A stretch of 39,879 bases of DNA from NCBI GenBank assembly GCA_900290305.1, contig OMOG01000285.1, positions 1 through 39,879 of the forward strand, given 5' to 3'. This document shows, one piece after another, positions 4,550 to 21,283 of this stretch. The notes beneath the pieces are model-generated. The model had not been told where the DNA came from, did no database searches, and saw only the letters and a list, made by a program, of their open reading frames with translations. Within the stretch, counting starts at the first letter, position 1; the number at the start of each line of letters is the position of its first letter. A program made the position numbers and the translations under genes. This DNA comes from Candidatus Sulfopaludibacter sp. SbA4 (GTDB lineage Bacteria > Acidobacteriota > Terriglobia > Bryobacterales > Bryobacteraceae).

Positions 4550-4723
4550 GTGAAAGACTGGAGAGCGATGGCGAAGGCCGGCGGGCTTGAAGTTTCGGAG
4601 CGGGACCTCGAGCGAATTGCCGGGCCGCTGGAAACACTGGAGGAGGCCTTCCGGCCGCTGGCGAAGGAACTGAAGGCGGAAGACGAGCCGGCGACCGCGT
4701 TCCACGCCGAGGAGACCGAATGA
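4550..4723 (+). CDS. GatC-like small subunit paired with the amidase
   Basis: A small protein of about 57 residues. The GTG at 4550 is preferred because AGGAGG ends 4-5 nt before it; an in-frame ATG at 4529 would add seven residues without a ribosome site. The sequence LERIAGPLETLEEAFRPLAK followed by DEPATAF matches the C-terminal pattern of GatC-like proteins, where an amphipathic helix precedes an (E)PA-x-x-F motif. GatC stabilises the amidase GatA in the tRNA-dependent amidotransferase. Here no gatB is visible, so it more likely assists a stand-alone amidase. Its TGA overlaps the amidase ATG (ATGA at 4720-4723), which implies translational coupling. It is too short for firm homology by eye. 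Confidence 0.6.
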   Translation: MKDWRAMAKAGGLEVSERDLERIAGPLETLEEAFRPLAKELKAEDEPATAFHAEETE

Positions 4724-6121
4724 CCATCCGGGAAGCCGCTGAATCGCTGCGCGCGCGCCGGTTCTCCTCGGTGGAACTGACCACGTCCGCGATCGGCCGC
4801 ATCGAGAGCTGCAACCCTGAGCTCAACGCGTTTATCACGATCACGGCGGAGCGGGCGCTGGATCGCGCGCGCCTGGCCGACATCGAGTTAGCCGCCGGCC
4901 GCGACCGGGGGCCGCTGCACGGAATCCCCATCGCGCTGAAGGATCTGTTCGCCACCCGCGGGGTGCGCACTACGGCGGGCTCCAAGGTGTACGAGCACTA
5001 TGTGCCGGGCGCGGACGCGACGGTGGTGGAGAAACTGGAGGCCGCGGGGGCCGTGAGCCTGGGCAAGCTGAACCTGCATGAGCTGGCCTATGGAATCACG
5101 TCGGCCAATCCGCACTTCGGGGCGGTCCGCAACCAACCCGTGGAATGCGGAGCACACTCCCGGCGGATCGAGCGGCGGGTCGGGCGCGGCAGTGGCCGCG
5201 GGGCTGGTGTACGCCGCCATGGGCACCGATACGGGCGGCTCCATCCGCATTCCGGCGTCCTTCTGCGGGACCGTGGGGTTGAAGCCCACCTACGGCCGGG
5301 TGAGCCGTCACGGGGTTTTCCCGCTTGGGTACAGCCTGGACCACATGGGCCCGCTCACGCGATCGGTGCGCGATGCCGCGATGGTGTTGAACGCCATCGC
5401 CGGACACGATAGCCGGGACCCGGCTTCCTCGCGGCATCCGGTGGTGGATTACGTTCCCGATGACGGGTGCGGCATCCGCGGCCTGCGCGTGGGGTTTCCG
5501 GAGAACTTCTACTTCGAGCGGCTGGATGGCGATGTGGATTCCGCGGTTCGCGGCGCGATCGCGCGTGCCGAGTCGCTGGGGGCCGAGGTGAAGCGCGTGG
5601 CGGTGCCGGATATTGCGGCGTTAAATGCGGTGGCGCGCGTGATTTTGCTGGCCGAAGCGTCGGCCGTGATGGAGCCGCACCTGGAGAAACGGGACCGCTT
5701 CGGCGCGGACGTGCTGGCCCTGTTCGACCAGGGACGCCTGCTGCCGGCCGTGGACTACGTGAACGCGCAGCGCCTGCGGCGCCGGATGCAGCGTGAATTC
5801 GCCAAGGTGTGGTCCGATGCAGACTGCCTGTTCATGCCCGCTACGCCCAACACGGCTCCGGGGATCGGCGAGACCACCGTCCGGCTGGGAGGGCGCGAAG
5901 AAGATGTCCGCCTGGCCACCACTCGCCTGGTGCGCGGCATCAATGCCTTGGGATTGCCGGCGCTTTCGATGCCCTGCGGGTTGAGCGCTTCCGGGCTGCC
6001 GATCGGGCTGCAGATCGTGGGACCCCCTTTTGAAGAGGCGCTGATTTTGAGGATGGGCGCGGCACTGGAAGACGGTGGGGTGGGGATCTCCCCGTGTCCT
6101 TTCCCTCGCGTTGAGTCATAG
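4720..6121 (+). pseudogene. amidase-signature hydrolase broken by a 4-bp duplication
   Basis: The two halves of an amidase-signature enzyme lie in different frames. The first frame starts at 4720 and contains the catalytic Lys in IALKDLFAT (Lys74); it leaves the family pattern after GAVRN. The second frame resumes exactly at PWNAEHTPGGSSGGSG, which holds the cis-Ser, then GTDTGGSIRIPASFCG, which holds the nucleophile Ser, and runs to the stop at 6121. Removing one copy of the tandem AACC at 5131-5138 restores a single ~466-codon reading frame with all three catalytic residues. The enzyme would hydrolyse an amide in the cytoplasm. Near-perfect conservation after the break suggests either a very recent mutation or a sequencing/assembly error. 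The upstream GatC-like gene is translationally coupled to it. Confidence 0.85.
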
Positions 6122-18450: not shown

Positions 18451-18502
18451 GAGCCGGCGAAAAACCGCTATGATGGAATCATTCGAGAGAGGAGAAGGCC
18501 CG

Positions 18503-19024
18503 ATGTTCCTGCTTCGCGGTGCCACGGTTCTCTTGGCTGCGTCGACCCTGCTGGCGCAGTCGCCGTTTCAATCCATTCCGCCGGCTGTTTCCGACACGCT
18601 CAGTTTCCGGACTCCGCTGGCCGATTTCGAGGCTAAAGACATCGGCGGCAAGACCTGGCGCCTGGCGGATCTCCAGGGGCGGCTGACCGTGATCAGTATT
18701 TTTGCCGCCTGGTGACTTCCGTGCCGGGCGGAGGCTCCGTCCATACAGGCCCTGTACGACGAAATGAAAACGAACGGCAAAATCCAGGTGCTCACCTTCA
18801 GCATCGACCGCGATCCCGAGCTCGTCCGGTCTTTTATGAAGGAGAAGGGATACGCGTTCCCGGTAATCGTCGCTCCGGATTTGGAGCAGAGGCTTTTCCC
18901 CCAGGAAGGCGGCATCCCGAAGACGTGGGTCATCGACCGCCAGGGCCGCAGGTCCGACGCGTTTCGGGCTTGGACCTTCGGCCGGATCGTTATCGAAGTC
19001 GAAAAAATCGCCAAGGGCGATTGA
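18503..19024 (+). CDS. candidate selenoprotein: TlpA/redoxin-like thioredoxin-fold protein with UxxC (in-frame TGA)
   Basis: Read through one TGA (18713-18715), this is a 173-residue exported protein. A signal peptide (MFLLRGATVLLAASTLLAQ) precedes a complete TlpA/AhpC-TSA-like thioredoxin fold. FEAKDIGGKTWRLADLQG starts the domain, LTVISIFAAW precedes the active site, and the cis-Pro loop is GGIPKTWVID. The active site should read W-C-x-x-C. Here it is W, TGA (residue 71), L, P, C, R, so TGA replaces the first, attacking Cys. Homology continues without loss of frame on both sides. Two readings are possible: selenocysteine insertion (supported by a hairpin at 18726-18742) or a nonsense mutation or sequencing error. 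The start at 18503 has GGAGAAGG upstream and a TATGAT box at 18469-18474. The gene lies 6 nt before a GH106-like gene, so the two are probably co-transcribed. The partner and substrate are unknown. Confidence 0.65.
18726..18742 (+). promoter_or_regulatory. candidate bacterial SECIS hairpin
   Basis: GGGCGG (18726-18731) pairs with CCGTCC (18737-18742), with one G-U pair, around the 5-nt loop AGGCT. The loop begins 16 nt after the in-frame TGA and has G as its second base. Bacterial SECIS elements lie inside the coding region just after the UGA, with a small apical loop carrying an early G about 16-37 nt downstream. The fit is at the short end of that range. The stem is only 6 bp in this GC-rich DNA, so chance is possible. 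Confidence 0.5.
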
Positions 19025-19030
19025 ACAGTC

Positions 19031-21283
19031 ATGCGCTGCGTAATTCTGGCTCTCCTGCCCGCTGCCCTGTTCGCGCAGCCGGCCTCCCGGGATTTCGATC
19101 CTGCGATCTTCAAAGCTCCACCGGCCGAGTATCGCGGCCACGCCATGTGGAGTTTCAACCTCACCACGTTGAATGAGAACGCCATCGTCTCCGGCATCCG
19201 CGAGATGGCGAAACTGAACTACGGCGGATTCTTCATCGAGGCGGGCGGCGGGCCAATTCCCGGCCGCACTCCGCCCGGTCCGGGGGTGGCGTTTCTCAGT
19301 CCCGAATATTTCCGCTTCTACAAGCTTGCGCTCGAGGAGGCCAAGCGGCAGGGCATGGAAGTCATTCTCTACGACGACTATCGCTTTCCGACGGGCACCG
19401 TCGGCGGACAGATGGCCATGCAATACCCGCAGTACATGGCCAAGAGTCTGAACATGGCCGAGAAGGACGTGACAGGCCCGGCCCACGCGGACCTGGCGAT
19501 CCCGCAGGGCATTTACGTGGGCGCCGTCCTGATGAACCGGGATACCAACGAACTCGTGGACGTCAGCGGCCGGCGCACGGGCGACCGAGTGGCCACCGAC
19601 GTCCCCAGGGGCAACTGGAAGCTGATGGCCTTCTACCTCGCCGAGGGCCGTGCGCGCGTGGTGGACTATCTCGATCCGGAAGCCATGACTAAGTTCATCT
19701 CCATGACTTACGACAAGTACGCGGAGAACTTCGGAACTTACTTCGGCAACCTGATCCGGCAGACGTTCTACGACGAGCCCTCCATGCACCACGCCGACCG
19801 CATGTGGACTCCCGGGTTCAACGCGGCATTCGAGAAGCGCTACGGCTACTCGCCGATGAAGAATTACCCCGCGCTGTGGTACGACATCGGCCCGCGGACG
19901 GCGGCCGCACGCAATGCGCTGTTTGGCTTCCGCGCGCAGCTCTTCTCGGAGAACTTCATCAAGCGCCTCAACGACTGGTGCGCCGCACATCACCTGGTAT
20001 TCGGCGGGCACCTCGACCAGGAAGAGCCGCTCAACCCCACGCCGCTCAATGGCGACCTCCTGAAGGTCTTCGAATACCAGTCCGCGCCGACCGTCGACGA
20101 CATCTGGTGGTACGGACGCTCCAACCCGTCGTACAAAATCGTGACTTCGGCGGCCTTCAATTTCGACCATCCCATCGCGCGCGCCGAGACCTACGCCGCC
20201 TACCGCGTGCTGGACGGGAAGATCGCGTTTCAGGTGGCCATGGACCAGTTCGCCATGGGAATCAATTTCCAGATCCCCGCGCTCACGCCGCAGCCGAAAC
20301 GCCCCGAGCTGAACGATTACGTTGGGCGGCTCAGCTACCTGCTGCAGCACGGGCGGCACGTGGCCGATATCGCGGTGCTCTACCCCATCGCGTCGTTGCG
20401 CGCGCAATATCACAACATCGGCGGCCAGCAGTTCGCGATGGCGGAAGGCGAGCAGCCGCCGCAGATTGCGGAGAACGTGTACGCCCGCGAGGGCGGCCCC
20501 GCGCATGGCATCGATTACCAGGGCGTGGGCGATGCCCTCTACCGCAGCCTGCGCGTCGATTTCACCTATCTCCATCCCGAAGTATTGGTGGATCGATGCA
20601 TTCTCGACGGCAACAAGCTGGTTCTCGACAACCGCGAGAATCGCGAGGAGTACCGCGTGCTGATTCTGCCTTCGGGCGACGTGCTGTCCGCGGCCGCGGC
20701 CGCCAAGATCAAGAAGTTCTACGACGCGGGCGGCATGGTGATCGCGACCGGAGCGCTGCCCACGCGCTCCGCGGAATTCGGCAAAGACAAAGAAGTGCAG
20801 CAGGCCATCGCCGATGTCTTCGGCGTCTCGCCCGGCGAGCCCTTGAAGGCCGATGTGCGGCGCGCGCAGGACCGGCAGAATTTCTACGTGTTCTGGTACT
20901 ACACGAAGAAGAACAAGGCCGGAGGGAATGCGATTTTCCTGCCCGTGGTCGATCCGTGGCTGATGGACTTCGCGTTGAAGTTGGTGCTGCCCGCGCGGGA
21001 CGTGGATATCCAGGAGCCGCTGGGCGCGATCCGCACGGGAAACGAATACGAAGGCGCCCTCACCTATATACACAAGGTGAAGGGCGGCCGCGACATCTAT
21101 TTCTTCGCGAACTCGTCCGCAAAACGGATCGACACCAAAGTGGTGCTGCGCGGCCAGAAGAGCCTCCGGATCTGGAATCCGCATACCGGCGAGCAGCAGC
21201 CGGCCGAGTTCACACAGGGCGAATCCAGCACGACGGTGCACCTGGTGCTGCCTTCGGTATCGTCACTGTTCTATGTCGAGTAG
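19031..21283 (+). CDS. GH106-like glycoside hydrolase (rhamnosidase-type)
   Basis: A 750-residue secreted protein with a signal peptide (MRCVILALLPAALFAQ). The N-terminal barrel begins with FKAPPAEYRGHAMWSFN and LNYGGFFIEAGGG. It continues with VILYDDYRFPTGTVGGQMA, the counterpart of the YDE-x-x-xPSG-x-GG strand of GH106 alpha-L-rhamnosidases, and QTFYDEPSMHH, a likely site of acidic catalytic residues. A glutamine-amidotransferase-like linker (REEYRVLILPSGDVLSA, then KKFYDAGGMVIATG) and a C-terminal beta domain follow. GH106-like enzymes remove rhamnose from plant or microbial polysaccharides; activity on another sugar is possible. It starts 6 nt after the thioredoxin-like gene and overlaps the GNAT gene by 11 nt, so the three form an operon. 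Confidence 0.78.
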   Translation: MRCVILALLPAALFAQPASRDFDPAIFKAPPAEYRGHAMWSFNLTTLNENAIVSGIREMAKLNYGGFFIEAGGGPIPGRTPPGPGVAFLSPEYFRFYKLALEEAKRQGMEVILYDDYRFPTGTVGGQMAMQYPQYMAKSLNMAEKDVTGPAHADLAIPQGIYVGAVLMNRDTNELVDVSGRRTGDRVATDVPRGNWKLMAFYLAEGRARVVDYLDPEAMTKFISMTYDKYAENFGTYFGNLIRQTFYDEPSMHHADRMWTPGFNAAFEKRYGYSPMKNYPALWYDIGPRTAAARNALFGFRAQLFSENFIKRLNDWCAAHHLVFGGHLDQEEPLNPTPLNGDLLKVFEYQSAPTVDDIWWYGRSNPSYKIVTSAAFNFDHPIARAETYAAYRVLDGKIAFQVAMDQFAMGINFQIPALTPQPKRPELNDYVGRLSYLLQHGRHVADIAVLYPIASLRAQYHNIGGQQFAMAEGEQPPQIAENVYAREGGPAHGIDYQGVGDALYRSLRVDFTYLHPEVLVDRCILDGNKLVLDNRENREEYRVLILPSGDVLSAAAAAKIKKFYDAGGMVIATGALPTRSAEFGKDKEVQQAIADVFGVSPGEPLKADVRRAQDRQNFYVFWYYTKKNKAGGNAIFLPVVDPWLMDFALKLVLPARDVDIQEPLGAIRTGNEYEGALTYIHKVKGGRDIYFFANSSAKRIDTKVVLRGQKSLRIWNPHTGEQQPAEFTQGESSTTVHLVLPSVSSLFYVE

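Follow-up and report, generated by a model that had tools for sequence, protein, structure and literature searches.

The window (the whole stretch of DNA that was analysed, 39,879 nucleotides) corresponds to contig C687 in a draft genome of 10.1 Mb. At positions 18503–19024 of the forward strand, to which all features of the gene described below belong, it carries a gene for a predicted exported TlpA/ResA-like thiol-disulfide oxidoreductase of 173 amino acids. The frame (18503–19021) is open except for a single in-frame TGA at 18713–18715 and is followed by the terminal TGA (19022–19024). When read through, it comprises 173 codons (M...WULPCR...GD) and gives the product MFLLRGATVLLAAS...IFAAWULPCRAEAP...GGIPKTWVIDRQG..., in which the internal TGA is taken as selenocysteine (Sec, U). 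A putative Shine-Dalgarno-like stretch is located at 18490–18496 within GAGAGGAGAAGG, with a good GGAG immediately upstream of the ATG, inside AGAGAGGAGAAGGCCCGATG. The product probably begins with a signal peptide, MFLLRGATVLLAASTLLAQ (18503–18559), as judged from the letters alone; the confidence of the structural model is low in this region.

According to the homologue alignment, the in-frame TGA encodes residue 71 and occupies the column of the first Cys of the WCxxC motif. The codons of the second (resolving) Cys of UxxC, residue 74 (18722–18724), and of Pro139 in the loop G-I-P-K-T-W (18917–18919) both fall in invariant columns; by analogy with the family, the peptide bond of Pro139 is presumably cis. 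The first-pass annotation had described a fold open on either side of one TGA lying at the first Cys of W-C-x-x-C, with the second Cys and the Pro loop intact in the same frame, and the frame, the Pfam matches and the alignment are all in agreement with this description. The Pfam families found in the read-through product are AhpC-TSA (1.3e-16), Redoxin (7e-12) and Thioredoxin_8 (3e-6). The NCBIfam scores are all below the curated cut-offs: 59.2 bits against 170 for ResA, 53.2 against 230 for TlpA and 30 against 123 for DsbE. Judging by these scores, the protein is best placed in the broad TlpA/ResA fold family and outside the named ResA, TlpA and DsbE groups; it has the thioredoxin fold, the WCxxC position and the invariant Pro before the last strands that characterize the broad family. 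The structure predicted from a 26-row alignment (mean pLDDT of 86) matches 3kcm, ResA and TlpA, the closest solved structures, and its helix 72–88 starts one residue past U71, where it is to be expected in a thioredoxin CxxC. Of 932 TGA triplets counted over all six frames of the window, the one at 18713 is the only one for which the list of motifs, screened by eye, showed a redox motif recognisable as part of a known fold.

The next gene, encoding a GH106-type rhamnosidase, begins six bases past the stop of the TlpA gene and may be co-transcribed with it. The closest homologue of the TlpA gene (in genome G221) does not have this neighbour on its short contig, so no functional link is claimed. 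The terminal TGA and the start codon (ATG) of the GH106-like gene share one reading frame (19022–19031), and a second read-through would fuse both genes. This possibility was rejected: no hairpin of the SECIS-like kind was found after the TGA at 19022, which is taken as a real stop, and the next gene has a signal-like start of its own. Elsewhere in the window, an amidase gene (4720–6121) extends over two frames covering positions 1–119 and then 117–445 of PF01425, which by its sequence is a frameshift originating either from mutation or from assembly.

Selenocysteine machinery of the genome

The first-pass annotation had noted that no sel genes are visible around the TlpA gene. This is correct for the window but not for the genome, where selA, selB, selD and tRNA-Sec, the four components it had proposed to look for, are all present. 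The scores of SelA (494.8 bits), SelB (352.7 bits) and SelD (359.8 bits) are far above the curated cut-offs. The tRNA-Sec (GGAAGCC...GGCTTCCGCCA, 74.6 bits) has the anticodon TCA according to ARAGORN and an encoded CCA end. The draft assembly is 84% complete, consists of 790 contigs and shows 4% contamination, so the membership of a contig in the genome is not certain; the GC content of the sampled contigs is alike (0.61–0.64).

The SelD gene (G000:C353:5784-6704, L023) is itself interrupted by a single in-frame TGA, which lies in the motif G-U-A-S-K and is accompanied by the hairpin GTCCAA-AGTTG-TTGGAC. This position is occupied by Sec or Cys in many SelD proteins. SelD of this genome is thus probably a selenoprotein itself, as the TGA and the hairpin suggest. 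Furthermore, one in-frame TGA is found in five of the 32 AhpC-TSA matches of the genome, the window gene included. The other four are a peroxiredoxin with the motif T-G-G-U (G000:C370:43983-44366, L072), two Prx-like proteins with WUPxC (G000:C602:17846-18235, L073, and G000:C42:8345-8740, L075; motifs W-U-P-L-C and W-U-P-F-C) and a deiodinase-like protein with T-U-P-P-F (G000:C77:1087-1470, L093). Each of these genes has a SECIS-like hairpin 3' of its TGA, and these four redoxin-type genes are likely to encode selenoproteins as well.

The SECIS-like hairpin and the TGA homologues

A SECIS-like hairpin, GGGCGG-AGGCU-CCGUCC, is located 10 nt past the UGA of the TlpA gene (18726–18742), as indicated by folding, covariation and a published model. 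The model of the bacterial SECIS (PMC13188914) comprises a loop of 3–9 nt with a G within its first two positions, a stem of 4–16 bp, 16–37 nt between the UGA and the loop, and an energy of at most -7.5 kcal/mol. The hairpin of the window agrees with the model in every respect (6 bp, loop AGGCU, spacing of 16 nt, -9.5 kcal/mol); if the A-U pair closes, it has 7 bp and the loop GGC at 17 nt. The loop AGGCU also matches the pattern N-G-[G/U]-N-N. In the same genome, the hairpins of the SelD gene, of one of the Prx-like genes and of the deiodinase-like gene resemble it but are weaker (-5.5 to -6.4 kcal/mol) and fall short of -7.5, so this line is not absolute.

When the 53 nt from the UGA are folded alone, a competing hairpin (-18.1 kcal/mol) that pairs the bases right after the UGA is preferred; when the UGA and the next ten bases are held unpaired, as in the ribosome, the SECIS-like form is the optimum. 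The plain minimum-energy fold of these 53 nt is unremarkable (z-score of -1.2) and was set aside as evidence. When the window gene is recoded at random with synonymous codons, 0.03% of the sequences reach the observed energy at this spacing. Among the ordinary codon positions of window genes, about 1% are followed at the same distance by a hairpin just as good.

Among 237 genomes of the family, a search at the protein level revealed four other TlpA domains with TGA exactly at the first active-site Cys (W-U-G-A-C, W-U-K-P-C, W-U-S-F-C and W-U-G-Y-C). A DNA pattern permitting TAA, TAG, TGA or TGG at the active-site codon was then applied to these 237 and to 396 genomes of the phylum; it returned the same five TGA genes in the family and five more in the phylum (two W-U-G-P-C, one W-U-G-G-C and two W-U-G-A-C). 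The nine TGA domains other than that of the window span seven genera. Neither TAA nor TAG was found at the active-site codon in the pattern searches of the 237 and 396 genomes. Two further TGA matches (G072, G129) and three TGG matches (G185, G569, G297) lie in frames too short for a thioredoxin fold and were regarded as chance matches; the TGA of G158:C656 is outside the active site, the codon of which is TGC, and was excluded from the count. SelA is present in all ten genomes with a TGA TlpA gene and tRNA-Sec (E < 1e-9) in nine of them, no match at E below 1e-9 being found in G228 (91% complete). SelA is encoded by 189 of the 237 family genomes, so its co-occurrence alone is a weak argument.

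The same hairpin lies at the same distance from the TGA in all ten TGA TlpA genes. In these ten sequences all 60 pair cells are standard, ten of them being altered on both sides; the two-sided changes affect two of the six pairs (U-A/C-G/G-U/G-C and C-G/A-U). None of 500 shuffles pairs as well, and no slid register comes near. Of the six pairs, just one is prescribed on both sides by the DNA search pattern, and the protein search had already yielded four of the nine other TGA genes before the pattern was used. The best hairpin energy is -7.7 to -9.5 kcal/mol in the five TGA genes of the family, and none of 29 Cys homologues reaches -7.5 (Mann-Whitney p = 6e-5).

The complete Sec machinery of the genome together with the hairpin in the gene means that the in-frame UGA is almost certainly read as Sec. 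The best surviving alternative is that a chance nonsense mutation hit the Cys codon of the active site and that the gene is freshly dead. The window does contain another damaged gene, the frameshifted amidase, and the nearest homologue (G221, 55% identical) encodes Cys in a genome that has both SelA and tRNA-Sec, which means that the closest kin do not share Sec at this site. But the same codon is TGA in nine other genomes and never TAA or TAG, the hairpin accompanies each of these nine TGAs, and the genome decodes Sec. Besides, the identity to the G221 protein is 55% upstream and 60% downstream of the TGA and on either side the changes are concentrated at third codon positions, which argues that the part 3' of the TGA is still constrained as protein. 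The genes of the relatives are intact rather than decayed, and TGA/Cys pairs do occur at the active-site column, which is what the comparison of homologues suggested in the first-pass annotation was to reveal. A dead gene is thus very improbable. A sequencing or assembly error hiding a real TGC or TGT is slightly less probable still: the 790-contig draft, in which the frameshift of the amidase may be such an error, would allow for it, but an error would not create a hairpin found solely with TGA homologues, and its recurrence at the same codon in nine other genomes is not expected. That TGA, the codon concerned, is reassigned genome-wide to Trp or another residue is hardly credible, since other genes stop at TGA (e.g. 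at 19022–19024), the homologue column is Cys and not Trp, and SelA, SelB, SelD and tRNA-Sec are present.

Proposed function, relatives and evolution

The gene is therefore best read as encoding an exported TlpA/ResA-like oxidoreductase with a nucleophilic Sec (W-U-L-P-C-R), the UGA being decoded by means of the hairpin and the Sec machinery; from the sequence evidence we give this reading a probability of about 0.94. In the proposed scheme SelA would make Sec-tRNA(Sec) with selenophosphate from SelD, SelB carrying this tRNA would be recruited by the hairpin 18726–18742, and Sec would be inserted at the UGA at 18713, where translation would otherwise end. After export to the cell envelope, a disulfide of the substrate would be attacked by U71 in its selenolate form, and C74 would set U71 free again via a selenylsulfide. 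The open frame, the machinery and the hairpin, which covaries in the TGA homologues and is lacking in those with Cys, are seen in the sequences themselves; from them we infer that the UGA is decoded in vivo, that the enzyme is exported, and the chemistry and direction of its redox reaction.

Bacterial UxxC selenoproteins of the TlpA/AhpC-TSA fold have already been catalogued, namely the thiol-disulfide isomerase-like (cd02966) and the Prx-like thiol:disulfide oxidoreductase (PF00578) proteins, as well as a redoxin family protein (PF08534) and a UGC form of TlpA (PMC9312934, PMC1088965), and the selenoproteins of Acidobacteria, the phylum to which the first-pass annotation assigned its relatives, have been counted since 2006 (PMC1794560). 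The window protein thus adds to a known class. It shares with the isomerase-like UxxC proteins (cd02966; Sargasso Sea, PMC1088965; PMC13188914) the thioredoxin fold, Sec at the first position of CxxC and a SECIS 3' of it. Those proteins, compared here by description only, are marine, whereas the host of the window belongs to another lineage and its predicted SECIS is a short hairpin of 6 bp with a 5-nt loop common to ten TlpA genes of the phylum. The Prx-like selenoprotein (PF00578, UxxC/UxxU) has an AhpC-TSA domain with UxxC in common with the window protein, but the best NCBIfam scores of the latter are those of ResA and TlpA, and the Prx-like WUPxC genes of this genome (contigs C602 and C42) are separate. 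The UGC-containing TlpA (WAxxUGC_long, NF041054) combines a ResA-like fold with Sec as well; its motif is U-G-C in contrast to U-L-P-C, and the window protein, which scores 31.5 bits where the cut-off is 300, falls outside this group. The ResA/TlpA thiol-disulfide oxidoreductases of known structure (PDB 1st9, 1jfu, 3kcm) share the fold, the CxxC position and the invariant Pro, and have Cys where the window protein is predicted to have Sec. Standard gene callers halt at TGA and would therefore annotate the gene of this enzyme as truncated. Its presence would point to the use of selenium in envelope thiol chemistry by this lineage.

The window protein adjoins the Cys protein of G221 in a tree of 46 domains (support 87/75) and is separated from the remaining Sec proteins. 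To place the Sec label on this tree, a minimum of four changes is required, and well-supported branches force two of them; many forks are weak. This pattern suggests that Sec and Cys forms of TlpA domains have probably replaced each other repeatedly, as was described for bacteria in general (PMC1794560). It is possible, though the odds are somewhat against it, that the TlpA domains of the phylum switched between Cys and Sec several times and that each Sec form acquired its near-identical short SECIS from the codons of the conserved R-[AE]-E-x-P that directly follows the active site, a motif which perhaps pre-adapts these genes to gaining a SECIS by few mutations. Ten Sec and many Cys versions, with the hairpin accompanying Sec only, form a natural series for the change of a Cys codon to a Sec codon, and the same series suits the study of SECIS origin within a coding sequence.

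Two minor observations were made among the genomes searched. In one homologue (L029, G222:C29:22202-22699) the fold is still matched and both active-site Cys are gone, N-Y-G-M-A-N standing for W-C-x-x-C. One genome of the phylum, G438, has two full-length SelA genes (G438:C23:82892-84256 and G438:C19:231471-232814).
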